A DNA stretch of 46,427 bases from Caldilineales bacterium (GTDB taxonomy: Bacteria > Chloroflexota > Anaerolineae > J102), in contig JAIBAP010000048.1 in assembly GCA_019695115.1 (NCBI GenBank), positions 1 through 46,427 of the forward strand. Reading direction: 5' to 3'. The notes below the pieces were generated by a model. That model searched no databases. It was not told the origin of the DNA and saw only the letters and a program-made list of their open reading frames with translations. The position numbers were made by a program, and so were the translations under genes. Positions 168 to 23,276 of the stretch are shown here, in pieces. Each line of letters opens with the position of its first letter. The stretch's first letter is position 1.

Positions 168-1034
168 ATGTCAAACAGAATCCGCATCGGCGTCATCGGC
201 GGCAGCGGCGTCTACAATCTGCCGGGGCTGACGGAAGTCGAAGAAGTCAGGTTGGAGACGCCGTTCGGCGCGCCCAGCGACGCCTACATCCTGGGCACGA
301 TCGACGGCCAGCGGGTGGCTTTTCTGGCCCGGCATGGCCGCGGGCACTTGATCAACCCCACCCATCTGAACAGCCGCGCCAATATCTGGGGCTTCAAGCA
401 GCTGGGGGTGGAGTATCTGATCGCGATGAATGCCTGCGGCTCGCTCCAGGAGCAGTACGAACCCGGCCACATCGTCATCCCCGACCAGCTTTTCGACCGC
501 ACGCGGCTGCGCCCGCTGACTTTTTTCGATGACCCCGGCCTGGTGGTGCACCTGTCGGTGGCCGAGCCGCTTTGCCCCGACCTTTCGGACATCCTCTACC
601 GGGCGGTGCAGGCCACGGGGAAGACGGTGCACAAGGGCGGGGATTTCGTCATCATCGAAGGCCCGCGCTTCAGCACCAAGGCCGAGAGCCGGGTGTTCCG
701 GCAGCTCGGCTTCGCCATCATCGGCATGACGGCCATCCCCGAGGCTTTCCTGGCCCGCGAGGCCGGCACGTCCTACGGCATCATCGCCCACGTCACCGAT
801 TACGACGTATGGCACGAGACCGAGGAGCCGGTGACGGTGGAGATGGTGATCCAGACGCTGCTGGGCAACGCCGCCGCCGCCCAGCAGGCGACGCTAAACG
901 CCATTGCCATGCTACGCGACGCCCCGCCCTCGCGCTATGCCGACGTCCTCCAGGATGCCATCATCACCAACCGGGCGCTGATCCCGGAGGGGTTGAGGGA
1001 GAAGTATGGGATGTTGATGGGGAGGTTTGTGTAG
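168..1034 (+). CDS. mtnP: S-methyl-5'-thioadenosine phosphorylase
   Basis: The enzyme splits methylthioadenosine with phosphate into adenine and 5-methylthioribose-1-phosphate, the first step of methionine salvage, in the cytoplasm. The 288-aa protein has the usual family length. It shows the N-terminal phosphate-binding GGSGVYNL, then ARHGRGH, NACGS, the EGPRFST substrate loop and GMTAIPEAFLAREAG, all typical of MTAP/PNP family 2. The ATG at 168 is preceded by AAAGGA at 155-160. The next gene starts 48 bp downstream and is functionally unrelated. A second gene that may act on MTA, the amidohydrolase at 19898-21898, lies far away on the other strand. Purine nucleoside phosphorylase activity cannot be excluded from sequence alone, but the motif set fits MTAP best. 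Confidence 0.95.
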   Translation: MSNRIRIGVIGGSGVYNLPGLTEVEEVRLETPFGAPSDAYILGTIDGQRVAFLARHGRGHLINPTHLNSRANIWGFKQLGVEYLIAMNACGSLQEQYEPGHIVIPDQLFDRTRLRPLTFFDDPGLVVHLSVAEPLCPDLSDILYRAVQATGKTVHKGGDFVIIEGPRFSTKAESRVFRQLGFAIIGMTAIPEAFLAREAGTSYGIIAHVTDYDVWHETEEPVTVEMVIQTLLGNAAAAQQATLNAIAMLRDAPPSRYADVLQDAIITNRALIPEGLREKYGMLMGRFV

Positions 1035-9100: not shown

Positions 9101-11446
9101 AGTCCCGATATCTGGGTGCGCCACAGCCAGGACGGCGGGGAGCAGCACGAGAATCCGCAGGCTGGACAGCGCAACTTCATCTACGCCCGCATCCACAACC
9201 GGGGGACGACGCGGGTGCGAGACATCGCCGTGGCCTTCTACTTCGGCAACCCCAGCCTGGGCCTCAGTTGGCCGGACAATTGGACGCCACTCGAAGCCAC
9301 GGCCCACATCGACAGCCTGGCGCCCGGCCAAGCGACGGTCGTCTCCATCCCCTGGGACGTGCCCAACCTCAGCGGTCACTTCTGCCTGCTGGTGCGGATC
9401 AGCGCCGCCGCCGACCCCATCCGGCTGAATGACACCGCCTGGGACAACAACATCGGCCAGCGCAACCTGCACATTGTCGCCTATCCCCAACCCGCGGCCG
9501 GCGCCTGCCAACTGGACAAGAGCGGGATGTACAGCGACCGCATCGGCTTCGACGTAGTCAACACCCTCGCCGCCTCCAGCTTGATGGACTTCGAGATCGC
9601 CGCCAATGGGCTGCCGGTCGGGGTCGAGGTGCGTTTCGAGCCGGGCGGGCTGGCCGGGCGCTGGAGCTCGCTGGATGGGTTGGTGGTCGAGGCCGACGGC
9701 CGGCTGCGACTGACAAGTGCGCCGGCGCGAGTCTACGGCATACGGCTCGCCCCCTACGAGAAGCGCACGGTGTTTCTGGAAGTCAGGGCGCCGGACAACA
9801 GCCGCTTCACGGTCGGGTTGACCGAGATCGTTCGCGGGCAGGTGGTGGGTGGGAACACTTACCAACGCTACCTCCCGCCTTGCCCTCTCGCCCTGCCGCT
9901 CATCCTCGGCCCTCGGCCCGGTTGTCGCCCCGGCCACACCTATACCGCCGACGCCGATTTCGACCAGGGCCTGATGATCAACATCAACCACCGCGTGCCC
10001 AGCAGCAACCAACTGCAATTGAACGACAAAGTGACGCCGCTGCCCTTCATCTGGATCGCGCTTTCGGGACGGGGCACGGTGGCCAAGGTCAACACCGAGA
10101 CCGGCGTCGTGCTCGGCGAATATCTGTCGGCGCCTTCCGGTCGCAGTCGCAATCCCTCGCGCACCACCGTCGATCTCAACGGCAATGTCTGGGTGGGCAA
10201 TCGCGACGAAGCCGCAAGCGGCAAAGGGTCGGTCGTACACATCGGGCTGTTGGAGAACAGCCAATGCATCGATCGCAATGGCAACGGCGTCATCGACACC
10301 TCGACCGGGCTGAGCGATGTGAAACCCTGGCCCAACGCTGGCGGCGTCGACAACGGCGGCGGCGTGGCGACGGCAGAGGACGAGTGCATCATCGACTATC
10401 TGCGCACCAGCGGCACCAACGTGCGCACGGTGGCGGTGGATGTGCGCAACAATGTGTGGGTGGGCGGTCTAGGCAACATGGTGCACGATCTCATCGATGG
10501 CAACACCAAGGCGGTGCTGAAAACGATCCATCCGACTTGCGGCGGCTATGGCGGGCTGGTCGATGCGGCGGGGGTGCTGTGGTCTGCGTCGGGCAACAGC
10601 GCCGACAGCAAACTCCTACGCTACAACCCACTTACGGATGAAGCCCGCTGCATCGCTATACCGTATGGCTACGGTTTGGGTATAGACAGCCAGGGCAACA
10701 TTTGGCATAGTCAATGCAGCGCCAACCAGGTCAAGAAGTTGGATGCGAACGGGGCGACCCTGGGCGATTATGCCAGCACTGGCTCCTGTCCAACCGGCCT
10801 GACCGTGACCCCCGCCGACGACAACGCCTGGATCGCTAATCGATACTCCGCCAATGTCACGCGGCTCGGCAGTACTGGCAGCGCGCTGGCTACCATCCCG
10901 GTGGGCGGCTCGCCGACTGGCGCCGCTGTGGATGCAGCGGGCAAGGTGTGGGTGACGAACTATGACTCGAACAATGCCATGCGCATCGATCCGGCCACGA
11001 ATTCCGTTGACCTGACGGTGCCGCTTGGCGCCAATGCTCATCCTTATAACTACAGCGACATGACCGGTTCGGTCGTGCTCAGTTCACCGCCACAAGGCAA
11101 GTGGGTGGTCATTTACGATAGCGGAACCGCGGCTACACCCTGGGGAACCATCGCATGGAACGGTATGGAGCCGGTAGGGACAAGCCTCACTGTGCGTGTG
11201 CGCAGCGCCGAGAGCCGCACCGACCTGGGCGGCCAGGCGTGGGTGAACGCAAGCAACAATGTAGTCCTGGTTGGCGCACTCTCCGGTCGCTATCTGCAAG
11301 TCGAAGTGCAGTTCCTGGGCACCGACCAGGGCGCGTCGCCCATTTTGTATGACCTGACCGTAACGCCGCTCTGCCAGGCAGCACCATCGACGCCGCCAGA
11401 ACCATCCTCGCCAGAAGCGGCGCCATTTGCGCTGCCGAAGGATTAG
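6125..11446 (+). CDS. Giant secreted protein: NIDO, Cys-rich repeats, VWA, CARDB-like and beta-propeller domains
   Basis: This 1773-aa protein has a signal peptide (1-38). A nidogen-like (NIDO) domain spans about 93-305, and a Thr/Pro linker follows. Two tandem copies of a 123-residue Cys-rich domain (GWAGDKDDPNR, CGVCPADQPQCKHGF) lie at about 334-456 and 478-600, then a longer Thr/Pro stalk. A VWA domain with MIDAS DRSSS (Asp703) and LLTDGNPEG comes next. A DUF11/CARDB-like region covers about 880-1240. A Vgb/NHL-type beta-propeller spans about 1308-1645 (IWIALSGRGTVAKVN, VWVGN, IWHSQC). A beta-rich C-terminus ends it; no sorting signal or anchor is seen. AAGGAG precedes the ATG. Adhesion or matrix binding is inferred from the domains. 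The leader and the VWA-CARDB part match the protein at 13659-19097. Confidence 0.9.
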   Translation: MQTRRLTFLVSFFLMLVLLVGAGMAGAGASSQPSAVFAQTASPANDNTEFSDTLAISANDLLQNTNTAVILPSASHHSEDDLFAAISNTDAIRNNAGFRRQYLSANDDGFTNQVPIGFLSNFFGGIYNTLYVNNNGNITFDQSQAEYTPYDLTSTHRVIIAPFFADVDTRGYGSDLTTFGIDTVDGKPAFGVNWVNVGYYSGHTEKLNSFQLVLISRNDIGQGDFDIEFNYAQILWETGDASGGNGGLGGASARVGYSNGTRQPGTFYELPGSAVNGAFLDLNSSTGLIHHSRNSAILGRYMFEVRNGVVLPTHTPSPTNTPTPTLTPTPTNPAIGAIDNPSCDAITGWAGDKDDPNRPVEVHLYANGPYDSGTFIGAVVADLPRESAVCNALGGVNCGVCPADQPQCKHGFAFTAIPAWLQDGHPHAIYAYGLNLPGTAGNPANPLYGVPKTLTCLPTPTPTPSPTRTPTAVPANSAIGAIGEPTCSAITGWAGDKDDPNRAVEVHLYADGDYSSGRFITGLSADLPRETAVCSILGGINCGVCPADQPQCKHGFRFPNLPAWLLDGQSHTIYAYALNLPGTSGDPATLLAGSPKALQCLPTPTYTPSATLRASPTLTPTKTATPTPSPTSTSTPIPGDLTPTPRLPTPTATPDFPVCTLTVEKTAFPSVARIDGQVGVMLRLEGECASEVGAAVDVALVIDRSSSMCGVKLDQAEAAGQAFLDNMTFPPDQASIISFASTAQLQAGLTGNRTQAGNALGSIACGGFSRIDAGLNKAFEEMSGARRVAGHTPAVLLLTDGNPEGSYADDVRAAAQHLREAGIQFYTVDLGEDADAALLREIATAPDHFYQSPTGEQLEAIYTRLAGELRQVPAANLNLVDVVGPNFEIVPNSFSGAATPRVDGQTLSWAIPRLDVGASEVRFSVKPKACGTFPVNESAAVSYDDNRGVRRTANFPIPSVTVAGCDEALTDIFIRDNDTDDGRIPSSRPWWLSPDIWVRHSQDGGEQHENPQAGQRNFIYARIHNRGTTRVRDIAVAFYFGNPSLGLSWPDNWTPLEATAHIDSLAPGQATVVSIPWDVPNLSGHFCLLVRISAAADPIRLNDTAWDNNIGQRNLHIVAYPQPAAGACQLDKSGMYSDRIGFDVVNTLAASSLMDFEIAANGLPVGVEVRFEPGGLAGRWSSLDGLVVEADGRLRLTSAPARVYGIRLAPYEKRTVFLEVRAPDNSRFTVGLTEIVRGQVVGGNTYQRYLPPCPLALPLILGPRPGCRPGHTYTADADFDQGLMININHRVPSSNQLQLNDKVTPLPFIWIALSGRGTVAKVNTETGVVLGEYLSAPSGRSRNPSRTTVDLNGNVWVGNRDEAASGKGSVVHIGLLENSQCIDRNGNGVIDTSTGLSDVKPWPNAGGVDNGGGVATAEDECIIDYLRTSGTNVRTVAVDVRNNVWVGGLGNMVHDLIDGNTKAVLKTIHPTCGGYGGLVDAAGVLWSASGNSADSKLLRYNPLTDEARCIAIPYGYGLGIDSQGNIWHSQCSANQVKKLDANGATLGDYASTGSCPTGLTVTPADDNAWIANRYSANVTRLGSTGSALATIPVGGSPTGAAVDAAGKVWVTNYDSNNAMRIDPATNSVDLTVPLGANAHPYNYSDMTGSVVLSSPPQGKWVVIYDSGTAATPWGTIAWNGMEPVGTSLTVRVRSAESRTDLGGQAWVNASNNVVLVGALSGRYLQVEVQFLGTDQGASPILYDLTVTPLCQAAPSTPPEPSSPEAAPFALPKD
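7123..7492 (+). repeat. Cys-rich domain repeat, copy 1
   Basis: Copy 1 of a coding repeat of about 123 codons, offset 432 bp from copy 2 with no net length change. It encodes AIGAI, then GWAGDKDDPNR, LPRE, CGVCPADQPQCKHGF, PAWL and LNLPGT. Six Cys positions recur in both copies, which suggests conserved disulfides in a secreted binding domain. The GWA...D/HGF pattern recalls an unnamed beta-rich domain of secreted bacterial proteins. Confidence 0.9.
7555..7924 (+). repeat. Cys-rich domain repeat, copy 2
   Basis: Second copy of the 123-codon unit at 7123-7492. The Cys pattern and the CGVCPADQPQCKHGF block are identical, with scattered substitutions elsewhere. A Thr/Pro linker of about 20 codons separates the copies. 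Confidence 0.9.
8099..9883 (+). repeat. Shared VWA-CARDB module, copy A
   Basis: This stretch of 595 codons corresponds to 16596-18380 at a constant offset of 8497 bp from first Cys to last Cys, with no net insertion or deletion. It encodes the VWA domain (DRSSSMCG, CGGFSRIDAGLNKAFEEMSG), a linker with NESAA.SYDDNRGVR, and a CARDB-like part with SGHFCLLVRI. It ends at Y-R-YLPPC. It is clearly a duplication inside this locus. Confidence 0.9.
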
Positions 11447-11495
11447 GGCGTCCCGCAACTGGTACTTGATGCAACGAACAGGGAGGACTACAACT

Positions 11496-13559
11496 ATGCC
11501 GCCTCGCCGTATCGTTTTTCTGGTCGTTATCACGGTGTTGGCCTTTTTCCTTGCCGGCTGCGCGGCTGGTGATAGCCAGGAGGCTTCCCCTACCATCCAA
11601 GCTCCAACACCGACAATTCAGGCGACAGCCACACCGCCTCCGACCGCAACTCTTACACCCACCGCCACCCCCACCCCTGTTCCTCCCGCCGTCCTGCAAG
11701 GCAGAGTGCTCGACCCAGCCACGGGCGAACCGGCCGTCGGAGCCGAGATCACGGCTGGAGAACAGAAAGCCACCGCCGACGCCGATGGCCGCTTCATGAT
11801 CTCCGGCCTGGCTCCCGGCCAGTATGTCGTGCTGGTCAGCCATCCCGCCTATGATCCCTACCTGTCGGGGATCCTGACCCTGAACGCAGGCGAGACGCAA
11901 AACCTGGATGTGCTGCTCAGCGCTAGCGGCACGACGCGCTACCCCACCGACCCTATGGCGCAGAATCAGGTGGACCCCGCCGGCGCGCCTACTGCCGCCG
12001 AGGCCGAGCGTCTGGCCCGGCTGCAAGGGTTCCGGGGGCAGGTGGCAAGCATTCAGGAAACCCTGCTGGATGGACAGTTCCTGGTGAACTACCGCTTGGG
12101 CGGCTCTTTGCGCGCGGCCGTGGCGACGCTCAATCATCCGGCTTGGGAACTGATCGACCAGGACGGCCGGTTATGGTACATCGTGCGGGTCTGCGGCAAT
12201 CTGGCCGTCGCAAGACCTGCCACAGCCTCACTGCCGCCGCAGCTCGAGGCTCAGCCCTACCCGGTCGTCACCGTGGGCGGGCAGGCTACGATGGGTCGCG
12301 CCTGCGCCAGCGACGATTGCGAGGTGCTCATCGAGTTGCCAGCAGGCTGGCACGGCGTGGTGCTGGCATGTGCGGCCGAGTGCCAATGGTTGCGGGTGCA
12401 GGGCGAAGGCTGCCGGGGCGGTTGTTGGATCCGGTCGGAAGGACAGACGGTACTGGGCAATGCCGCGCGGCTGCCCCGTGCACCGGGCGAGATCCAGTGG
12501 TCGGCGCCAGAACCCATCAGCCCGAACGGGCAGGGTGGGCCTACGCAGCGACTCTTGCTGGACAAGAATGGGCGGTTGTGGGGGTTTTGGGAAGAACACA
12601 CTGCCAACCCTAGCCCCACGAAAATCTACGAGACCATCCACTACCGCACTTGGAACGGTGTTGGCTGGAATGATCTGCAAGACATTCCTGGCAGCGAGAA
12701 TAGTGGGGAGCCGTCAGCCACGGTTGCCACAGATGGAAGTGTTTTGGTACGCGCCGACCGGGCGGTTGATTTGATGAAGAACAAATTCGAAAAGATATGG
12801 TTTCGTTGGGATGGCAAACAGTGGACTGAACTCCGAGAGATGATGACGGAGTATATAGACCAGGGAAATGCCGGCGAGATTGCCGCCGATGGCTTCGGCA
12901 ATGTCCTTTCATTCGCCAATGGCAGTCAGGTTTGGGATGGTTCGAGCTGGCGCAAGGCAGACGGGCCGCAATTCTATGTTCCTTCAGCGGCACTGCGCTT
13001 GGATAGTCGTGGGCAACTGCACATAGTCCAGAGCGGGAATGAAGGCATACGGCACTGGATTTGGAATGGCGAGGCGTGGGCCCTGGGAGAGACCATCTAC
13101 AGGCCATTTTCTGACGAGGCGGCAGTCTACGCCAGTTTGTCCGTCGGCCCGGGCGACGCCATTCATGTGGTTTGGGTCAGCAGCCGCCCGCGATCGCTCG
13201 ACCCCAATACGCCGACGCCGCATCGGGTGTTGTACAGCCGCTGGACCGAGGCGGGATGGACGCCGCCTCAAGTCATCATGGGGCCTTTCGACGACAAAAG
13301 CGCATGGTTCCCCGCTATGACCGTGCTGCCCGATGGTCTGATCGTAGTGGTGTGGGGCGATGTGGGTGTGTTTCCGCACTCAGCAGTGTATGCCACGTGG
13401 GGCGATGGCCAGACTTGGACCCCGCCCGTGGTCATCGCTGCCAGTGACAAAACTGAATCGATGTATCCCTCGATCGCAGCCGACGCGGATGGGAACATCC
13501 ACGTCATCTGGATGGGCAACGGCTCAAATCCTGTGTACCACGTCTTGGGCAGGCGCTAA
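11496..13559 (+). CDS. Surface lipoprotein: carboxypeptidase-regulatory-like, SH3-like and sialidase-like propeller
   Basis: The start at 11496 is chosen because GGGAGG precedes it and it begins a clean lipoprotein signal (MPPRRIVFL to lipobox LAGC, Cys22). A frame-compatible earlier ATG at 11427 lies inside the previous gene. The 687-aa protein has a Thr/Pro stalk (about 30-65) and a carboxypeptidase-regulatory-like beta-sandwich (about 67-140: LQGRVLDPATGEPAVGA, DADGRF). An SH3b-like Cys-containing segment lies at about 260-325. A repeat-rich C-terminal half has sialidase/BNR-type blades (LLLDKNGRLWGFW, DADGNIHVIWMG). It should sit on the outer membrane face. It lies between the two giant secreted proteins and is probably expressed with them. 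Catalytic residues of a true sialidase are not evident. Confidence 0.85.
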   Translation: MPPRRIVFLVVITVLAFFLAGCAAGDSQEASPTIQAPTPTIQATATPPPTATLTPTATPTPVPPAVLQGRVLDPATGEPAVGAEITAGEQKATADADGRFMISGLAPGQYVVLVSHPAYDPYLSGILTLNAGETQNLDVLLSASGTTRYPTDPMAQNQVDPAGAPTAAEAERLARLQGFRGQVASIQETLLDGQFLVNYRLGGSLRAAVATLNHPAWELIDQDGRLWYIVRVCGNLAVARPATASLPPQLEAQPYPVVTVGGQATMGRACASDDCEVLIELPAGWHGVVLACAAECQWLRVQGEGCRGGCWIRSEGQTVLGNAARLPRAPGEIQWSAPEPISPNGQGGPTQRLLLDKNGRLWGFWEEHTANPSPTKIYETIHYRTWNGVGWNDLQDIPGSENSGEPSATVATDGSVLVRADRAVDLMKNKFEKIWFRWDGKQWTELREMMTEYIDQGNAGEIAADGFGNVLSFANGSQVWDGSSWRKADGPQFYVPSAALRLDSRGQLHIVQSGNEGIRHWIWNGEAWALGETIYRPFSDEAAVYASLSVGPGDAIHVVWVSSRPRSLDPNTPTPHRVLYSRWTEAGWTPPQVIMGPFDDKSAWFPAMTVLPDGLIVVVWGDVGVFPHSAVYATWGDGQTWTPPVVIAASDKTESMYPSIAADADGNIHVIWMGNGSNPVYHVLGRR

Positions 13560-13658
13560 TGACCGCGGATCGGCAGAGATTCGCATGGTTTGCGCACCCT
13601 TGCTCACTTTCCAGGTTTCCCTCCGTCTCTCTCCTATCGCCTCGCAAGGAGCCTCCTC

Positions 13659-16600
13659 ATGAAAACACGCCGCCTCATCTTCCTGCTCGCTTTCTTCATG
13701 ATCGTGGTGCTGCTTATTGGCGGCGGAATGGCTTACTCAGGAGTGAGTTCGCAGCTGGCGCCAGCGCGGCCTCTCCCTTCCGATTTCCCCGGCAGCCCCA
13801 TCCTCTTCGTCCAAAACGCCGGGCAATGGCCCGAACCCGCCCGCTTTCAGATCTGGGGCGGCCCGGCAGGAACGATGTGGCTGGCGGAGGATGCCATATG
13901 GCTCACGTTCGTCGAACACTCCACTGAGCCTGCACCTGTCGACTCGCCATCTTCGTCTGATTCCGCATTTCGCAGTCCGCAATTCGAAATCCAAAATTGG
14001 AAAAGCGCCAACATCAAACTCACCTTCGCTGGCGCCAATCCGCATCCTATCATCGAACCGTACGGGCGGTTGGAGACCACAGTCAGCTACTTCATCGGCA
14101 GCGACCCGGAGCAATGGCGGCCGGAAGTCCCGGTTTGGAGCGGGGTGCGCTATGTGGACGTGTGGCCGGGGATCGATCTAGTGTTGGCGGACAAGGCCGG
14201 ACGGTGGGGATGGTGGTGGGAAGCTAGCGTAGAGGCGGACCTGGACGTAGTGCGGCTGCGTGTGGAGGGCGCCGAGGTGGTGAGGGTGGAGGGAGGAGCG
14301 CTCGTGCTGCACACGGAGGCCGGTGCCATCGCCTTGTCCCTGCCGGCCGCCGACTTCCTCTACCGGATCGAGAGTGTGCTGCCCGATGGACGGGCGCAGT
14401 CGACGGAAATCTCACCCGCGCTTGGTTCCGACCAGATCGCCCCGCAGCCGGAAGCAGGCCTGCTTCCTGTCGCCGACCCCAGCGCCTTGCTTTTCAGCAC
14501 TTATTTGGGCGGCGCGGCCGACGATGAAACCTACGGTTTCGACGTCAACGCCGCTGGCGATGTTTATATCATCGGAACCACGCGTTCATCCAATTTTCCT
14601 ACGACACCGGGCGCGTCCGACCGCGCTCTGGGCGGCGTACGCGATGCCGTTGTCGCCAGAATCAACGCTGAAGGCAACCATCTTGTTTATGCCGCCTTCT
14701 TGGGCGGCAATGGATCCGATTGGGGATTCGACATTGCCGTCGATGAAGCCAGCAGCGCCTATCTCACCGGCTATACTGCATCATCCGATTTTCCGACCAG
14801 CGCCAATGCCTACGACCGCAGCCTGAATGGCGGGCGGGACGTCTTTCTGGCGCAACTGAATGATGGCGGCAGCAGTTTGCTCTACAGCACCTTTTTGGGC
14901 GGCTCTGGAGACGATGATGGCTACGGCATCGCCCTAGATAGCACGGGCGGCGTTACTGTCGGCGGCGGCACGGAATCAAGCAATTTTCCCACAACTGCTG
15001 GCGCGAGTGACACCTCCTACAACGGGGGCCGAGATGCCTTCCTCGCCAGGTTCACGCCAGGTGTGGGACCGCAATTGGTCTACAGCAGCTACTTCGGCGG
15101 CGCCGAGCAGGATGACATCGAAGATATTGTGATGGACGGCAGTCGTACTATCTTCGCTGTTGGGGGCACGAACTCGACCGGCTTCCCCACCACGGTCGGC
15201 GCCTACGATAGAAGCCACAACGGCGGCCGCGATATCTTCGTTGTCAAGCTCAACCCGGACGGCGGTCTGGGCTTCAGCACCTTTCTGGGCGGGTCGAGCG
15301 ATGACGACGCCAATGGCATCGCAGTAGACGGAGACGGCCGCGTCTATGTTGCCGGCGGCGCAGGCTCGGCTGACTTTCCGACCGCTAATGGGTTGGATTC
15401 ATCGTTGGGCGGAAACAGTGACCTCTATGTCAGCCGATTCGATCCCACCGGCGCCTCGCTTGAGTTCAGTACCTTCATTGGCGGCAGTGGGGATGATGGT
15501 GGGGGCAAGGTGCAGGTCAGCGCCAATGGGGTGATCTTCGTCTCGGGCCGCAGCAATTCGCCGGATTTCCCAACATCGGCGGATGCTCTCTTCCCCAGTC
15601 TGGCCGGCGATACTGACGCCGTGCTTGTAGCTCTGCAATCGGAACCACCCCTGCTCGGTTTTGGCACCTACCTGGGCGGTGCTGGCGCCGATGCTGCCAA
15701 TGACATTGTTTTGGGGCCGGACGACTCCGTGTACCTGACCGGCAGGACGGCAGGTGGCTTTCCGATCACCGCCGGTGCATTCGACGCCACCTATAATGGC
15801 GGCGTCACCGATGCCTTTGTCAGCAGAGTGCGCGCCGGTTTCGCCCCACCGCCCGCGACCTCCACCCCTACCGCCTCACCTTACTTCCTTTGGGCCACCG
15901 AAGCTGAACAAGGCCAACTGATACAGCCCATCGCCTTGCGCACGGATCCATTGGCATCGGCCTGCTATCACATCTGGACCAACGACGACTGGTCCGAAGG
16001 CGGCGTCAGCTTCAATCTGACCGTGCCGGCCGAGAAGACTTATTATCTGTGGGCACGCGCCATGGGGCTGGCCTGGAACCAAAACTCCTTCTTCGTCTCA
16101 TTTGATGGTAGACCGGACATTCACTTCGAAATTCAGCCGATTGGCGGCGAGAACGGAGTATGGGGATGGCACTGGGGAGGCGTAGAAAATGGCATTGGCA
16201 ATCCCAACGCCTTTTCGTTGGCGGCTGGCCCACATACGCTCCGCTTCAAATCTCGCGAACCTAACGCCCGGCTCGACGCCGTGCTCCTCACCGACAGCAG
16301 TGCACTGATTCCCACCGATCCCTTGACTCTGTGCGGCTCTGTGACCCCAACCCACACCCCTACCGGAACTCAGACCCCTACCGGTACCCTCACGCCCACC
16401 CGGACGCCCTCACCTTCGCTCACCCCCACATCCACACGCACGCTTAGTCCAACGCCTACGCTCACCTCCACACCCACACCCACAGCCTCTCCCACGGCAA
16501 CTCCCTCCCCCACCAGCACCCCCACCTTTGTTCCTCCTCCCTTCACTCCCACACCCGTGCTGCCAACGCCGACCGCGACGCCAAATTTCCCCACTTGCTC

Positions 16601-19097
16601 GCTCATCGTCGACAAGATCGCATTTCCCAGCGTTGCCCATATTGACGGTCAGGTTGGCGTTACCCTGCGGCTCACAGGCAACTGCCCGTCTGAAGTAGGT
16701 AGTGCAGTCGACGTGGCCCTGGTTATCGACCGCTCTTCCTCGATGTGCGGCGCCAAGCTCGACCAAGCCCAGGCCGCGGGCCAAGCCTTCCTCGACAACA
16801 TGGCCTTCCCACCTGACCAAGCCAGCATCGTTTCCTTTGCCAGCATCGCCCAACTGCACACTGGGCTCACCGGCAATCGGACGCAGGCGGGCGCTGCTCT
16901 GGGCAACATCGCCTGCGGCGGCTTCTCGCGCATCGACGCCGGTCTGAACAAGGCCTTCGAGGAGATGTCCGGGCCGCGACGGGTGGCCGGACACACGCCC
17001 GCCGTCCTCCTGCTGACAGACGGAAATCCCGAAGGCAGCTACGCCGAAGAGGTGCGGACGGCGGCGCGGCATCTCCGAGAAGCCGGAATCCAGTTGTATA
17101 CAGTCGGATTGGGCGACGACGCCGATGCCTCACTTCTGCGCGAGATCGCCACTGCGCCCGACCACTTCTACCACTCCCCCGCGCCCGCCGACCTGGCCGC
17201 TATCTACACCCGGCTGGCCACCGAACTTCGCGACGTCCCCGGCGTCAACGTCAATCTTGTCGACACTATCAGCCCCAGTTTCGAGGTCGTCTCTGACTCG
17301 TTCAGCGGCGCGGCCATACCTCAAGTCAACGGCCAGGTCCTCACCTGGCAACTGCCCCGCCTGGCAGCCGGCATAACAGAGGTTAGTTTCAACGTCAGGC
17401 CCAAGCAGTGCGGAACGTTCGCAGTCAACGAATCTGCGGCTATGAGCTACGACGACAATCGCGGCGTCCGGCATACCCTGGTCTTTCCCCCCACCAGCGT
17501 GGCCGTCGAGGGCTGCACCACTACGCTCAGCGACGTCTTCGTGCGCGACAACCCGTACGACACCGGCGGCGTGCCAAGCAGCGCGCCCTGGTGGGAAAGC
17601 CCTGATCTGTGGGTGCGGCGCCTCGACGACGGCCAGACCGCTCACGAGAACCCAGAGGCCGGGCAACGCAACTATATCTACGTACGCGTCACCAACCGGG
17701 GCACGACGACGATGCGCGACATCGACATCGCTGCATATTTCGCCAACCCCACCCTGGGCTTGGGGTGGCCATCAGACTGGAACGCCATCCCGGGCACGCG
17801 GCGCATCGACAGCCTGGCCCCCGGCGAAGCGACCATCGTCGCCCTGCCTTGGGATGTGCCCAACGTCAGCGGTCATTTCTGCCTGCTGGTGCGGATCAAC
17901 GCCGACAACGACCCCATCCGCAACAACAGTGTGCCCTGGGACAACAACATCGCCCAGCGCAACCTGCATATCATAGCCTATCCTTTGCCGCCTGCCGGTG
18001 GCTGCCAGATGGACCTGCCCGGCTTCTACAGCGACCGCGCCGCCTTCACCGTCGCCAACCTGCTCGAAACCCCCTCGCTCGTCGATCTCCAGATCATGTC
18101 CGCCAGTTTGCCGCCCAGCGCCGAGGTGCGCTTCGAACCGAGGCCGCTGGCCGGGCGCTGGGCTTCGATGGATGGCCTGGTGCCGGAAAGCGACGGTCGC
18201 CTTTTCGTTGCAGGTTTCCCGGCCATGCTCTACGGCCTGCGCCTCAACCCGCTCGAACGCCGCACCGTCTACCTGGAAGTGCGAGCGCCGGGCGATACGC
18301 GCTTCCAGGTGGGGCTTTACGAAATTGTGCGGGGGCAGGTGGTGGGCGGGAATACGTATGAACGCTATCTCCCTCCCTGCCTGGGCCAGTTGACCGGAAA
18401 AGTGACCAACGTCTTCACTGGCAGGCCCATCGCCAGCGCATCCGTTTGCCTGCCCGCCAGCAACCAATGTGCGACCACGGATGAGCGCGGGCGCTACACT
18501 CTGGCCGGCGTCCCCGCCCAAACCCTGACGGCGCGCACCACGGCCGCCGGCTACCTGCCCCTAGCGCGCACCATCACTATCCCGACCGGCGCTGCGGCCA
18601 TGGCGAACTTCGAGTTGGCGCCTATCCCCCCCGCCGAGGACATGCGAATTGTGCTGACGTGGGGATCGGCCCCGCGCGACCTCGACGCTCACTTGTGGTT
18701 ACCTGCGCCTCAGCCTTTCCATGTCTACTACTCACAGCCCGGCATCTGCGCCGCCTTCCCGCATGCCTGCCTGGACGTGGACGACACCACCGGCTACGGC
18801 CCTGAAACCATTACCATTCACCAACGGCTCGACGGCAGCTACACCTTCGCCGTGTATCAGTTCACATTTGGCGGTGCACTGGCGGGATCCGGGGCCCGCG
18901 TACAGGTGTACAATGGGGGAGAGCTGCTGGCACAGTTCGAGGCTCCCACAGTCGGCATCGGCCGTTGGTGGCATGTCTTCGACCTTGACGGAACGACCGG
19001 CATCCTCACGCCGCGCAACCGCATTCTCTCGACCCCGCCAGGGCCGTATGCCACCGCTAGCGATGCGGCGCCGCAGGGCAAAGAAGGCGCGCGGTGA
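13659..19097 (+). CDS. Giant secreted protein: DUF7948/SBBP propeller, VWA, CARDB-like and C-terminal beta domains
   Basis: The ATG at 13659 is preferred over one at 13590 because AAGGAG lies 8 bases before it and MKTRRLIFLLAFF is a proper signal peptide. The 1812-aa protein opens with a DUF7948-like domain (about 45-265, FVQNAGQWPE). SBBP beta-propeller repeats follow (about 278-727, FSTYLGG and SSNFPTT recurring). A CBM-like jelly-roll (740-884) and a Thr/Pro stalk (894-977) come next. The VWA domain has MIDAS DRSSS (Asp1024), followed by the CARDB-like region. A carboxypeptidase-regulatory domain (1575-1654) and a YfaP/DUF2135-like domain (about 1657-1787, DLDAHLWLP) end it. No anchor is seen. 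Residues near 95-115 contain a low-complexity insert. It is a paralogue of the protein at 6125-11446 over leader and module. Confidence 0.9.
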   Translation: MKTRRLIFLLAFFMIVVLLIGGGMAYSGVSSQLAPARPLPSDFPGSPILFVQNAGQWPEPARFQIWGGPAGTMWLAEDAIWLTFVEHSTEPAPVDSPSSSDSAFRSPQFEIQNWKSANIKLTFAGANPHPIIEPYGRLETTVSYFIGSDPEQWRPEVPVWSGVRYVDVWPGIDLVLADKAGRWGWWWEASVEADLDVVRLRVEGAEVVRVEGGALVLHTEAGAIALSLPAADFLYRIESVLPDGRAQSTEISPALGSDQIAPQPEAGLLPVADPSALLFSTYLGGAADDETYGFDVNAAGDVYIIGTTRSSNFPTTPGASDRALGGVRDAVVARINAEGNHLVYAAFLGGNGSDWGFDIAVDEASSAYLTGYTASSDFPTSANAYDRSLNGGRDVFLAQLNDGGSSLLYSTFLGGSGDDDGYGIALDSTGGVTVGGGTESSNFPTTAGASDTSYNGGRDAFLARFTPGVGPQLVYSSYFGGAEQDDIEDIVMDGSRTIFAVGGTNSTGFPTTVGAYDRSHNGGRDIFVVKLNPDGGLGFSTFLGGSSDDDANGIAVDGDGRVYVAGGAGSADFPTANGLDSSLGGNSDLYVSRFDPTGASLEFSTFIGGSGDDGGGKVQVSANGVIFVSGRSNSPDFPTSADALFPSLAGDTDAVLVALQSEPPLLGFGTYLGGAGADAANDIVLGPDDSVYLTGRTAGGFPITAGAFDATYNGGVTDAFVSRVRAGFAPPPATSTPTASPYFLWATEAEQGQLIQPIALRTDPLASACYHIWTNDDWSEGGVSFNLTVPAEKTYYLWARAMGLAWNQNSFFVSFDGRPDIHFEIQPIGGENGVWGWHWGGVENGIGNPNAFSLAAGPHTLRFKSREPNARLDAVLLTDSSALIPTDPLTLCGSVTPTHTPTGTQTPTGTLTPTRTPSPSLTPTSTRTLSPTPTLTSTPTPTASPTATPSPTSTPTFVPPPFTPTPVLPTPTATPNFPTCSLIVDKIAFPSVAHIDGQVGVTLRLTGNCPSEVGSAVDVALVIDRSSSMCGAKLDQAQAAGQAFLDNMAFPPDQASIVSFASIAQLHTGLTGNRTQAGAALGNIACGGFSRIDAGLNKAFEEMSGPRRVAGHTPAVLLLTDGNPEGSYAEEVRTAARHLREAGIQLYTVGLGDDADASLLREIATAPDHFYHSPAPADLAAIYTRLATELRDVPGVNVNLVDTISPSFEVVSDSFSGAAIPQVNGQVLTWQLPRLAAGITEVSFNVRPKQCGTFAVNESAAMSYDDNRGVRHTLVFPPTSVAVEGCTTTLSDVFVRDNPYDTGGVPSSAPWWESPDLWVRRLDDGQTAHENPEAGQRNYIYVRVTNRGTTTMRDIDIAAYFANPTLGLGWPSDWNAIPGTRRIDSLAPGEATIVALPWDVPNVSGHFCLLVRINADNDPIRNNSVPWDNNIAQRNLHIIAYPLPPAGGCQMDLPGFYSDRAAFTVANLLETPSLVDLQIMSASLPPSAEVRFEPRPLAGRWASMDGLVPESDGRLFVAGFPAMLYGLRLNPLERRTVYLEVRAPGDTRFQVGLYEIVRGQVVGGNTYERYLPPCLGQLTGKVTNVFTGRPIASASVCLPASNQCATTDERGRYTLAGVPAQTLTARTTAAGYLPLARTITIPTGAAAMANFELAPIPPAEDMRIVLTWGSAPRDLDAHLWLPAPQPFHVYYSQPGICAAFPHACLDVDDTTGYGPETITIHQRLDGSYTFAVYQFTFGGALAGSGARVQVYNGGELLAQFEAPTVGIGRWWHVFDLDGTTGILTPRNRILSTPPGPYATASDAAPQGKEGAR
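16596..18380 (+). repeat. Shared VWA-CARDB module, copy B
   Basis: This is the partner of 8099-9883, 8497 bp downstream and equal in length (595 codons). Silent and conservative changes are scattered throughout. The flanks (Thr/Pro stalk before it; carboxypeptidase-regulatory or propeller domains after it) differ completely, so the module was moved or duplicated as a unit between different front and back ends. Confidence 0.9.
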
Positions 19098-19102
19098 GCA
19101 AG

Positions 19103-19594
19103 TCACATGTGGACGAGACTACTGAAGCAAAGCCCCTCATCTCTCCCCCCCTCGGACATCACCCCCTCGCTCTCCTCGATCAAAAACGGCGGGTTCGGCT
19201 GCTCGAAACTCAACCCCGGCGCTGGAATGCGATGATGCTTGATGTCCGGCGGGATGTGCTTGTGATGCGGATGCGTGCTGGCCAGTGTTGGATCGTTGGG
19301 ATGTGGCTGCGAGTCGTACCAATACAACTTCTCGGATCCCTGCCAGACCTCATAGCCGTATCCTCGTAGCACCACACCGCCGCCGCCGAACGTCAGACGC
19401 TCTTTCACCACGAGATGATGACCGCTGTCGAAGATGATCTCGCCCGCCACTGTCGCGACGCTGGCCCCTTCCCGCGCAACTACAAGCGTCGAAGTGACTA
19501 TATTGGCATAACGCTCTGGCAGGGTGTAGACGAAGGTCTCGTAGTCACGCAGGGACCGGAATGCGTTCACGTCGCGCTGCCCTTTCGATGACAT
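19103..19594 (-). CDS. TumE-type toxin-like protein (DUF6516)
   Basis: A 163-aa protein with the DUF6516/TumE pattern: LRDYETFVYTLPERY, SGHHLVVKERLTF, LRGYGYEVW, WYDSQPHPN, HHKHIPPDIKHH and FEQPNPPFLIEE. Members of this family are annotated as toxins of small toxin-antitoxin pairs; their activity is poorly known. The ATG at 19594 lies inside the upstream gene (50-bp overlap). An in-frame GTG at 19570 may be the real start because the family core begins right after it. The last 20 residues (after FLIEE) are Gly/Ser-rich and atypical, perhaps a frameshifted tail. The gene ends 5 bp from the convergent giant-protein gene. Confidence 0.75.
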   Translation of the reverse strand: MSSKGQRDVNAFRSLRDYETFVYTLPERYANIVTSTLVVAREGASVATVAGEIIFDSGHHLVVKERLTFGGGGVVLRGYGYEVWQGSEKLYWYDSQPHPNDPTLASTHPHHKHIPPDIKHHRIPAPGLSFEQPNPPFLIEESEGVMSEGGRDEGLCFSSLVHM

Positions 19595-19838
19595 TGGCCA
19601 GCAGGGTCTGTCGTCTCAGCGCCTGGATCGTAGTGCGATACTGCTCGCGCCGCTCCTGGAAAATCTCATAGACCCCCGCCCAGTCGCTCCAATCCAGCAC
19701 CCAGGCGTCATCCGCCGGCTCTTCGCCGCTTATATACGACTCGTAGAAGGTTTCGGACAGAACGCCGTATTTGCGTTCATAGGTTAGCAAGTCTTCTTCG
19801 AGCGCGTGAATATCGAGAATGATTTCGTCGAGTGTCAT
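19545..19838 (-). CDS. Small acidic antitoxin-like partner of the TumE-type protein
   Basis: A 97-aa protein, largely helical and acidic. It begins MTLDEIILDIHALEEDLLTYERKYGV and continues with ETFYESYISGEE, DWSDWAGVYEIF and a basic end. Small proteins with this LEE..L..YE.KYG...E.FY layout commonly sit directly upstream of DUF6516/TumE genes, which suggests an antitoxin role; this is from memory of family context. The reading frame overlaps the toxin-like gene by 50 bp. A GGAGG ribosome binding site and a TTGCTC-16-TATAAT promoter lie just upstream. No DNA-binding domain is obvious. Confidence 0.7.
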   Translation of the reverse strand: MTLDEIILDIHALEEDLLTYERKYGVLSETFYESYISGEEPADDAWVLDWSDWAGVYEIFQERREQYRTTIQALRRQTLLANVIERAARRERIPVPA

Positions 19839-19897: not shown

Positions 19898-21898
19898 CTA
19901 CCTCCCCACCAACTCCAAATAATCCGCCCGCGCATTCCGGTCCGGCTTCAGCCCCAACAAACGCAGAAGCTGCGAGGTCAGCGCCGCTTTGCGCTCGGCA
20001 TCGCTGGCCGACCAGGTGCGGGCCTTGATCTCGATGAAATTGCCGGACCCCTGTGGCCGCGTGATCTGGTCGAGATTGATGGCAAACTCCGTCGCCTCGT
20101 ACTTCACCCAGTAGCGCTTACGCCACTTCACGATCTCGAACTCCTGCCGGGGCATGAAATACTCGCGATAGAAACGCAGCGAATAGGTGGCCTGAGCGGT
20201 GTAGCGCGAGCGCGAGAGAATGACCGAATCCTGGAACTCGCGATCCTTGATCCCCTCCATCAGGGTCAGGCTGTAGGTGGGGCGCACACTCAAGGCCGTC
20301 GCCCGGCCTTCTTCGCCCGCGCCCACCAGCTCGTTATCCTCGCGGTAGCGCAGATAGCGGTCGCCCGTCCCGCCCTCGAACAGAAAATAGGTATCGAACT
20401 GCTGCCGCACCGACTGGCGGATGATCTCCAGGTCACTCGCCAGCAACCTGGCTTCGACCGCATCCACCTCCTCGATCCGCACCTTCACCTGCACTTCATA
20501 CGTCTCCTTCTGGGCAAAGCCGCCAATCGCCACCGTCTTGTTCAGAAGACTGCCCTCGCGTTCGGCCATGAAGGTATTCACCCGTGCGGCGATTTCGGCC
20601 GCCCGCGCCTGCACCGCCGGCAGATCGACCGTCAGCAGCGCCCGATCCTGCACCAACTGCCGGCCATGCACCCACACATGCCGCACATCCGTGCTCTTGG
20701 CGGCATAGACCAGATGGCTGTAGACACTGTGTGGGCCGAGATGGAAGCGCGGGGCAGCGTGCGCGCCCGACTGATCCACCACCACCACATCCGCCAGTTT
20801 CCCCACCTCCAGGCTGCCGATCTCAGGGTGGAGGTGCAGGGCGCGGGCGCCCTCGATGGTTGCCATCGCAAAGGCTTCCTGCGCCGGCAGGGCGGTGGGG
20901 TCGCCGGTGGTGGCCTTGGGCAAGAACGACGCCAGCCGCACCTCCTCGAACATGTCCAGGTCGTTATTGCTGGCCGGGCCGTCGGTGCCGATCCCCACCG
21001 GGATGCCCGCCGCCCGCAGCTTCAGCACCGGCGCGAAGCCCGAAGCCAGCTTGAGATTGGAGGACGGGTTGTGCGCCACCCCGGCGCCGCTGTGATAGAG
21101 CAACGGGATCTCCCGCTCCTTGATATGAACGCAATGGGCGGCGATCACCTTGGCCTCGAACAGGCCCAGACGGTGGGTGTACTCGATCGGCGGGGCGTCA
21201 TAATCCCGCAGGGCATCCTGCACCTCGATCGCCGTCTCGGACAGATGGATGTGTAGCGGCGAATCGGTGGCCACGGCCAGCGCCGTCGCCGCCTTCAGAA
21301 TCTCGTCGGTGTTGGTAAAAGGCGCGTGCGGCGCCACCGCCGGCGTTATCAACTCGTGCCCTTTCCAGGCTTCGATGAAAGCCCGGCAGCGGGCCAGGCC
21401 CTCGTCCCACGACTGTGCGTCGGGCGAGGGGAACTTGAGGATCGTCTGCCCCAACACCGCCCGCATCCCCACCTCGGCCGTCGCCCGCGCCACCTCCTCC
21501 TCGAAATAGTACATGTCATTGAAGGTGGTGATGCCGCTGAGCAGCATCTCGGCGCAAGCCAGGCGCGTGCCCACCTCGCAGAAATCAGGGCCGACGAACT
21601 CGCGCTCGACCGGCATCATATAGCCCAGCAGCCACACATCCAGCCGCAAGTCATCGGCCAGCCCGCGCAGCAGCGTCATCGGCGCGTGGGTGTGGGCGTT
21701 GATAAGGCCGGGGATGACCAGCTTGCCGCTGCAATCCACCTCCTGCTCGGCCGTCACCTGCTGGCGCACGCGCTCGGCCGGGCCGACGGCCACGATCTGC
21801 GAGCCGCGTATCGCCACCGCGCCGGGGTTGAAGACATCGCGCTTGGCGTTCATGGTGACGACGACGCCATCCACCAACAACGTATCGACTTGACGCAT
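19898..21898 (-). CDS. Amidohydrolase (MTA/SAH/adenosine deaminase type) fused to a C-terminal CYTH domain
   Basis: The start at 21898 has AAGGAG 8 bases upstream and begins MRQVDTLLVDG; an in-frame ATG at 21952 gives an unlikely extension. The 666-aa product has two parts. Residues 1-450 are a metal-dependent amidohydrolase of the MTA/SAH deaminase type: AHTHAP (His69, His71), HIHLSE (His218, Glu221), AAHCVH (His255) and GTDGPASNN (Asp306). This would deaminate methylthioadenosine, S-adenosylhomocysteine or a similar nucleoside. Residues about 464-660 are a CYTH (class IV cyclase/triphosphatase) domain with YEVQVKVRI, DTYFLF, YLRYRED, W.KRYWVKY and GNFIEIK. The usual ExExK reads EVQVK (468-472), so the second Glu is Gln470. 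The deaminase family normally ends near 430-450 aa, so the fusion is unusual. It is followed 59 bp on by the TumE-type pair and preceded by the VKOR gene. Confidence 0.88.
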   Translation of the reverse strand: MRQVDTLLVDGVVVTMNAKRDVFNPGAVAIRGSQIVAVGPAERVRQQVTAEQEVDCSGKLVIPGLINAHTHAPMTLLRGLADDLRLDVWLLGYMMPVEREFVGPDFCEVGTRLACAEMLLSGITTFNDMYYFEEEVARATAEVGMRAVLGQTILKFPSPDAQSWDEGLARCRAFIEAWKGHELITPAVAPHAPFTNTDEILKAATALAVATDSPLHIHLSETAIEVQDALRDYDAPPIEYTHRLGLFEAKVIAAHCVHIKEREIPLLYHSGAGVAHNPSSNLKLASGFAPVLKLRAAGIPVGIGTDGPASNNDLDMFEEVRLASFLPKATTGDPTALPAQEAFAMATIEGARALHLHPEIGSLEVGKLADVVVVDQSGAHAAPRFHLGPHSVYSHLVYAAKSTDVRHVWVHGRQLVQDRALLTVDLPAVQARAAEIAARVNTFMAEREGSLLNKTVAIGGFAQKETYEVQVKVRIEEVDAVEARLLASDLEIIRQSVRQQFDTYFLFEGGTGDRYLRYREDNELVGAGEEGRATALSVRPTYSLTLMEGIKDREFQDSVILSRSRYTAQATYSLRFYREYFMPRQEFEIVKWRKRYWVKYEATEFAINLDQITRPQGSGNFIEIKARTWSASDAERKAALTSQLLRLLGLKPDRNARADYLELVGR

Positions 21899-21971
21899 GC
21901 TCAGGCTCCTTGATAAACGAAGCGCGTGGGTGTTCCGCCCACGCGCCGGCATCGAGACCTGCTTGGGGTCA

Positions 21972-22415
21972 TCAGGCTTCCTCCAGCGCCGCTTCCTGAC
22001 CGAAGACGAGCATGGCGGCCAAGACCATGATGACGATCAGATTGACAAACGAAGCGACGCACCACGGGCACACCTCCCGCAGCAGGAACAACTCGGTGTA
22101 GGTCAGGTAGGCGGAAAAAGCGACGCCGCCGGCCGCCAGGGCAAAAAAGGCCAGGTCGGGCAGCGAACCTCGCTCGGGTTGCTGCCAGCGGTTGTAGATC
22201 GCCAGCGCCAACAGGGCCAGATAGCAGAGCAAGCCCAAGTAAGCCACCGGGACGCCCAAGAAGTAGGCGTAGATGCTGTTCTGGACGGTCGAGCAATCGC
22301 CGACGCCGCCGCAAAAGGCCTCGGTGTTGGTGAGCTTCACCCAACTGAGATAGCCGGCGATGCCGACCCCCAGCAGGCCGAGGCCGACCAAAACGTTGCG
22401 TAGTCTGGCCGTCAT
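21972..22415 (-). CDS. Vitamin K epoxide reductase (VKOR) family membrane protein
   Basis: This four-helix membrane protein (147 aa) reoxidises DsbA-type oxidoreductases and passes electrons to quinone, so it is the bacterial DsbB substitute. The key residues are present: loop Cys35/Cys41 (FCGGVGDCS), the conserved Ser/Gln following them, and the CPWC active site (Cys116, Cys119). The ATG at 22415 is chosen because AGGGAG lies 6 bases upstream; a TTG six bases earlier (22421) would overlap the dsbA stop. It lies directly after the DsbA-like gene with no gap, and the two form a complete disulfide-forming pair. Confidence 0.93.
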   Translation of the reverse strand: MTARLRNVLVGLGLLGVGIAGYLSWVKLTNTEAFCGGVGDCSTVQNSIYAYFLGVPVAYLGLLCYLALLALAIYNRWQQPERGSLPDLAFFALAAGGVAFSAYLTYTELFLLREVCPWCVASFVNLIVIMVLAAMLVFGQEAALEEA

Positions 22416-22417
22416 TT

Positions 22418-23158
22418 TCAACTCCCTGACTTTGCCTGCTCGACCGCCGCCTTAAACGCCGCCGGATCGAACGCGCCTTCGTACTTCACATCGTTGATGA
22501 AGATGGTCGGCGTCGAGTTGACGCCCTTATCGCGCGCCTCGATGTCCTCACGCAACATCGCCTCCTTGTACTTTTGGCTTTCCAGACACTTAGCGAAGGC
22601 GGCCGTGTCGAGGCCGATGTCGGCGGCCCGCTGCTCGAAATCCGAGATCTGCACGGCGCGGGGGTCCTGGCGCAAGCTCGCCAGAAGAACATCATGATAT
22701 TCCCAGAAACGCCCCTGGTCGGCTGCGCACTCGGCCGCCATCGCCGCCACCATCGAGTCGTTGCCGATCACAAAGCGATGTTTGAACTCGAAGCGGGCGA
22801 TGCCTGGCTTCACGAGGTCCTCGCGAATAGTCTTCTCCATGACGCGGTTGAAATCCTGGCAATGCGGGCACTGGAAATCTTCGTAGGCGACGATGGTCAC
22901 AGGAGCATTGGGGTCGCCCAGCGTCCGCCCGTCTGCCGGCTGCCCCACGGCGGCGGCGATCGAGCTACCGGCGGCCACGGTCGGGCTTGGTTGGCGGCTG
23001 TTCAGCAGGGCAACGACGGCCAACAACGCCAGCAGAGCGACGCCGGCGCCGGCAACCAACCACAACCAGCGCCGGCTGCTGGCTTGCTGTTTCGCCTCGG
23101 CCTCGCTGATCGGCTTGCTGCCTTTGCGCGGGGCCGGGCTTTCAATCTTCTTAGTCAT
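22418..23158 (-). CDS. Membrane-anchored DsbA-like thiol:disulfide oxidoreductase
   Basis: A 246-aa protein: basic cytoplasmic tail (1-30), one membrane helix (31-52), and an outside thioredoxin/DsbA-fold domain with CPHC (Cys97, Cys100) and the cis-Pro loop STPTIFIN. It should introduce disulfides in exported proteins, such as the Cys-rich domains encoded at 7123-7924. The start at 23158 follows AAAGGA; an ATG at 23206 would run through the promoter region. The stop codon lies 2 bp before the ATG of the VKOR gene, so the two are co-transcribed, probably with the amidohydrolase-CYTH gene further on. Confidence 0.93.
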   Translation of the reverse strand: MTKKIESPAPRKGSKPISEAEAKQQASSRRWLWLVAGAGVALLALLAVVALLNSRQPSPTVAAGSSIAAAVGQPADGRTLGDPNAPVTIVAYEDFQCPHCQDFNRVMEKTIREDLVKPGIARFEFKHRFVIGNDSMVAAMAAECAADQGRFWEYHDVLLASLRQDPRAVQISDFEQRAADIGLDTAAFAKCLESQKYKEAMLREDIEARDKGVNSTPTIFINDVKYEGAFDPAAFKAAVEQAKSGS

Positions 23159-23196
23159 AGTCAAACAATCCTTTCTGAGGGTGAAATGATGCTCCG

Positions 23197-23202
23197 AGTA
23201 TA
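23197..23202 (-). promoter_or_regulatory. Extended -10 element for the dsbA-VKOR operon
   Basis: On the minus strand TGCTATACT gives an extended -10 (TGnTATACT), about 39 bp before the dsbA-like start codon. A TTGACG lies upstream but at a spacing of 11, too close for a standard -35, so recognition would depend on the extended -10. Confidence 0.5.
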
Positions 23203-23276
23203 GCACAGCCTGCCGTCAAGGGCGATGCCGGCGATCCCAGGCTGTTCCACCGCCGGTCACAGCGCCGAACACCGGT

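Follow-up and report, generated by a model that had tools for sequence, protein, structure and literature searches.

CYTH proteins, or triphosphate tunnel proteins (TTMs), are known as triphosphate enzymes. According to the published mechanism, the first metal is held by the first Glu of the ExE motif and by phosphate, and this site 1 holds the substrate; the second metal is held by the glutamates of ExExK together with the second Glu of ExE, and activates the water (PMC8233210, PMC4641920). Mutation of Glu-2, Glu-4 or Glu-169 strongly reduces the PPPase activity of AtTTM3, and the corresponding Glu mutations in YgiF impair catalysis (PMC4641920). Natural changes at these positions have been described as well. 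The TTM domain of the yeast polyphosphate polymerase Vtc4p has basic residues in place of AtTTM3 Glu-2, Glu-4, Glu-90 and Glu-171 and is without site 2 (PMC4641920), and AtTTM1 and AtTTM2 are without ExExK and ExE, yet were reported to be active on pyrophosphate (PMC8233210). Class IV adenylate cyclases are recognized by HFxxxxExExK and by a small residue that replaces the first Arg of RxR (PMC8233210). The partners named for CYTH domains in fusion proteins are HD hydrolases, exopolyphosphatases, nucleotidyl kinases and CHAD, with an amidohydrolase not among them (PMC8233210). A literature search, in which few subscription papers were covered, recovered no paper that pairs 'CYTH domain' with 'amidohydrolase', in agreement with the first-pass annotation of this DNA, which knew of no described protein with a deaminase joined to a CYTH domain. 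Both families are known and, as far as searched, their pairing and the fixed double motif change reported below are undescribed.

Such a pairing is encoded in the window, i.e. the whole stretch of 46,427 nucleotides that was analysed. The relevant features are the following (residue numbers here and below refer to a 684-aa reading, unless stated otherwise):

19898..21898, minus strand: deaminase-CYTH fusion gene, conserved start ATG at 21898, 666 aa
20573..21898, minus strand: amidohydrolase (MTA/SAH/adenosine-type deaminase) domain, residues 19-460
19901..20506, minus strand: CYTH / triphosphate tunnel domain, residues 483-684
21686..21694, minus strand: HxH zinc motif, H87 and H89, invariant in 60 of 60
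20483..20497, minus strand: EVQVK, the altered ExExK (E486, Q488, K490), invariant in 60 of 60
20024..20032, minus strand: EIK, the altered strand-8 ExE metal motif (E641 retained, K643 for the second Glu), in 60 of 60
168..1034, plus strand: S-methyl-5'-thioadenosine phosphorylase-like gene, convergent with the fusion gene and 19 kb off

The frame is open throughout on the minus strand until the stop at 19898. An in-frame ATG at 21952, upstream of 21898, yields the 684-aa reading, and the homologues begin at the internal ATG at 21898, which corresponds to the 666-aa numbering of the first-pass annotation.

When the two halves were searched in domain databases, the match was strong for Amidohydro_1 (PF01979; 245.5 bits over residues 78-432) and weak, by Pfam, for CYTH. 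The best NCBIfam match of the deaminase half, PRK09045.1, scored 500.6 bits, below its cut-off of 540, and PRK15493.1 scored 283 bits against a cut-off of 779. Judged by its sequence, this half is in the same superfamily branch as the MTA/SAH deaminase models, below the curated equivalog cut-off. The HxH, H, H, D metal site and the catalytic Glu of the amidohydrolases are all there, as H87, H89, H236, E239, H273 and D324 are invariant in the 60 non-redundant homologues. The full amidohydrolase that had been read from His69, His71, His218, His255 and Asp306 (666-aa numbering) was thus recovered with every residue in place, and the deaminase half, as read from sequence and model, has a complete zinc-dependent active site. 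The nearest solved structures, in sequence as well as in fold, are the MTA/SAH/adenosine deaminases 4f0r/4f0s, 4gbd/4dyk and 4dzh. The match to the C. violaceum MTA/SAH deaminase 4f0r has an E-value of 2e-103 for sequence and 1.3e-44 for fold, and the best fold matches, with an identity of about 41%, are 4f0r, 4f0s and 4gbd, the latter being the P. aeruginosa enzyme with methylthio-coformycin. The likeness to the enzymes of C. violaceum (4f0r/4f0s) and P. aeruginosa (4gbd/4dyk) and to TM0936 of T. maritima covers the entire N-terminal domain, the zinc and catalytic residues and the fold, and the proteobacterial deaminases are around 41-43% identical to the domain. Unlike the fusion, the matched deaminase chains (406-472 residues) consist of the deaminase only and none has a C-terminal CYTH domain.

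A phosphorylase-like gene (TIGR01694 above cut-off in the three copies read) was found within 25 kb of the fusion gene in 7 of the 23 fusion genomes checked, where around 0.3 of 23 would be expected by chance, given 4-Mb genomes and keeping in mind that the genomes are related and not independent. In representatives of four families (G038, G048, G034 and G005) the two genes are convergent (tail-to-tail) and at most about 350 bases apart; the distance is 1.7 kb in G001, about 4 kb in G003 and, as listed, 19 kb in the window. The location of the phosphorylase gene beside the fusion in several families supports, on the level of gene linkage, a role of the fusion in MTA metabolism, and thereby the methionine-salvage side of the purine/methionine salvage role that was proposed in the first-pass annotation. 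Between the two genes the window holds three very long ORFs (710-1835 aa; 6125-19097, plus strand), of which the one at 13590-19097 has internal repeats. The neighbouring phosphorylase retains the sequence TDYDVW, which we take to be that of the 6-aminopurine (MTA) type. Prior deamination of MTA would then be unnecessary for the phosphorylase, and the predicted substrate of the deaminase half may be MTA, SAH, adenosine or 5'-deoxyadenosine. AhcY is present in 27 of 28 genomes, fusion carriers and others alike, and its LHxTxET motif is intact in the copies read. AhcY can therefore not decide between the candidate substrates of the deaminase half, and the SAH-to-SIH pathway was dropped as a guide. 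An MTA/SAH nucleosidase scored above cut-off in just 3 of the 28 genomes.

The Pfam model for CYTH (PF01928, cut-off 23.2 bits) gave 13.5 bits with the whole protein and 18.7 bits with the domain alone. The cut-off is exceeded in several orthologues (34.6 in G242 and 33.8 in G063), and 22 of 30 homologues show a match at an E-value of up to 1 (best 1.4e-8). The CYTH-like domain that had been noticed behind the deaminase was borne out by an AlphaFold2 model (pLDDT 82.5, 20-sequence alignment), which has the beta-barrel tunnel fold and for which the top PDB matches are TTM/CYTH proteins: SaTTM (7ns9, E 6.5e-9), class IV cyclases and PH1819. The Z-scores were 17.3 for PH1819 (2een; 169 residues, 2.2 A), 16.1 for SaTTM, 13.5 for the AtTTM1 structure 7z67 and 11-13 for chains of Med18/Med20. 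The fold search thus did match where a search of the PDB sequences with the domain profile gave no match. A profile alignment with 25 stand-alone CYTH proteins of the same class (E 2.6e-7) fixes the N- and C-terminal motifs of the fusion domain; stand-alone CYTH proteins of the CHAD type aligned solely across the N-terminal motif. In the genome of the window itself (G000) no further CYTH protein was found at an E-value of 0.01, although most of its relatives possess stand-alone or multidomain CYTH proteins.

All 60 non-redundant fusions carry E-x-Q-x-K, D-x-Y, R-x-R, K-x-R-x-R and E-x-K, whereas all 25 stand-alone CYTH proteins of the same class carry ExExK, RxR, T-x-K, K-x-R and ExE. The hallmark ExExK is therefore replaced by ExQxK (Q488) in every member. 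The EVQVK of the first-pass annotation (468-472 in the 666-aa numbering) had been taken as a possible sign of changed chemistry or of mere ligand binding, and that view gains strength from the fixation of the Gln and from a second altered motif that it had not included: the strand-8 ExE reads ExK (K643) in 60 of 60 members, with the first Glu retained. The lysine of T-x-K, a basic residue of the tunnel, is lost, and the site-1 glutamate, DxY and most of the tunnel Arg and Lys residues are invariant. An uncertain candidate for the equivalent of Glu-90 is R583, by motif reading, but hhalign shifts this position, and it is not counted among the changes. Across the domain 26 positions do not vary at all, and about 16 of these hold charged residues. 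An identification as class IV adenylate cyclase was rejected, considering the missing ExExK and the intact RxR in all 60. SaTTM and the class IV adenylate cyclases (PF01928), which are the best structural matches (Z 15-17), have ExxxK, DxY and the site-1 Glu in common with the fusion, and SaTTM also RxR; the fusion differs from them by ExQxK and ExK in place of the metal-2 acidic patch, by the loss of the T-x-K lysine and by the attached deaminase. Vtc4p is alike in the retention of metal site 1 and the change of the acidic patch to basic residues (PMC4641920), but it is remote in sequence and its polymerase chemistry is no part of the evidence on the fusion. In Arabidopsis TTM1 and TTM2 a CYTH domain with lost ExExK and ExE is likewise found C-terminal to a nucleotide-related domain, but there the partner is a phosphoribulokinase-like domain and not a deaminase, and the proteins occur in plants and amoebozoa. 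YgiF, a CYTH-CHAD inorganic triphosphatase, and other CYTH fusions also hold the domain within a multidomain protein of phosphate or nucleotide metabolism (PMC8233210), but differ in domain order and active-site residues.

Read by the TTM mechanism, ExQxK and ExK predict that the hydrolytic metal site 2 has been dismantled in one fixed way and that site 1 is retained, along with most of the residues that cradle the phosphate. The simplest reading would be ligand binding without hydrolysis of triphosphate, and the identical rebuilding of the cutting site in every species suggests a sensor and not a second enzyme. On sequence and model together, we consider the chances evenly balanced that the protein is a zinc-dependent adenosine-type nucleoside deaminase whose CYTH domain binds a ligand without hydrolysing it and serves for regulation. 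We infer that in this case ATP, PPi, PPPi or polyphosphate, perhaps together with a single metal, would sit in the tunnel as phosphate ligand and keep its gamma-phosphate, and that a filled tunnel would change how active the deaminase is or how it assembles. The coupling to phosphate or signal state that had been suggested in the first-pass annotation is likewise hypothetical. Given the loss of the T-x-K lysine, a ligand other than a triphosphate is conceivable. SAM synthetase releases PPPi and PPi as by-products, and the use of SAM gives rise to MTA and SAH, so that a sensor of this kind would, speculatively, link the clearance of MTA/SAH by-products to SAM or energy turnover. The full version, a deaminase for SAM by-products that is switched allosterically by triphosphate, pyrophosphate or ATP bound in a CYTH tunnel with reversed charge and no catalytic activity, is tentative and somewhat doubtful. 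If true, the CYTH domain would sense a metabolite on behalf of the metabolic enzyme to which it is fused. The fusion, lineage-wide and with its hydrolytic metal site replaced identically in every member, would provide a clear natural example of a CYTH domain that has been put to a different use. It offers a testable direct link between phosphate status and the clearance of SAM by-products.

The CYTH half could also be an enzyme in its own right whose chemistry has shifted, for instance to that of a pyrophosphatase like plant TTM1/2 or to a one-metal reaction, which would make the protein bifunctional. Considering that AtTTM1/2 act on pyrophosphate without ExExK and ExE (PMC8233210), the motif loss in the fusion is no proof of absent catalysis, and both the invariance of the tunnel Arg/Lys residues, DxY and metal-1 Glu and the recovery of AtTTM1 among the fold matches fit such an enzyme. 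We nevertheless judge it unlikely, as the residues for the water-activating metal are neutral or basic in every fusion member and equivalent Glu mutations impair catalysis in AtTTM3 and YgiF (PMC4641920). Alternatively, the domain could be a structural or partner-binding module without a small ligand, for instance in oligomerisation, like the CYTH-like folds of Mediator Med18 and Med20, whose appearance among the fold matches indicates that the fold can serve without catalysis. The low Pfam score would be in line with this, but most of the invariant charged residues belong to motifs whose positions form the tunnel lining of known TTMs, and their conservation at a domain identity of roughly 40-50% between families is unexpected of a scaffold, making this role quite improbable.

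An origin of the fusion by misassembly, or by a frameshift that unites two genes, is virtually dismissed, as the same open frame occurs in well over 100 genomes, among them finished chromosomes on very long contigs (G045, G048, G205, G213, G228 and G326), and forms a well-supported clade of single origin. A frameshift near 20500, which had been named as a finding that would undo the fusion, was not seen, and the same join is present in the 60 non-redundant full-length homologues. The C-terminal domain was detected in 63 of 100 relatives, nearly all with one open frame, and in 90 of 400 phylum-wide genomes, or about 89 when the chance match in G278 is left out (L103, by reading of its sequence acetyltransferase-like and rejected as member). 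Nearly every match lies within a single frame of about 650-840 codons, and the short ones (the second piece of G013, G039, G235 and G469) end at contig ends, which were seen for G235 and G469. Separate halves were not encountered among the sampled genomes, the only splits being those at contig ends.

The fusion is usually present in a single copy per genome. In the 400-genome sample about 49 genomes of the class have it and 5 do not, and it also occurs in a further set of families that lie beyond the class of the window genome and that we infer to be Chloroflexia. The named records recovered in a single-sequence scan of genome contigs belong to Caldilineales, other Anaerolineae or Chloroflexota, and no relatives were found on plasmids and viral contigs. 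In the deaminase tree the 30 fused rows are set apart by a single branch, supported at 100/99, and the closest unfused relative is 44% identical; the fusion thus arose once, as far as sampled, and is, by this phylogeny, old. The unfused relative (L167 of genome G046) is sister of the entire fused clade and a candidate for the pre-fusion state.

Immediately downstream of the fusion gene (19103-19838, minus strand) lies a gene for a TumE-like toxin (PF20126, 47 bits), which is overlapped by a TumA-like antitoxin ORF (weak match), the two probably constituting a toxin-antitoxin pair. Upstream (21972-23206, minus strand) there are genes for a VKOR-family protein and a DsbA-like thioredoxin, an arrangement that is maintained in several genomes of the same family.
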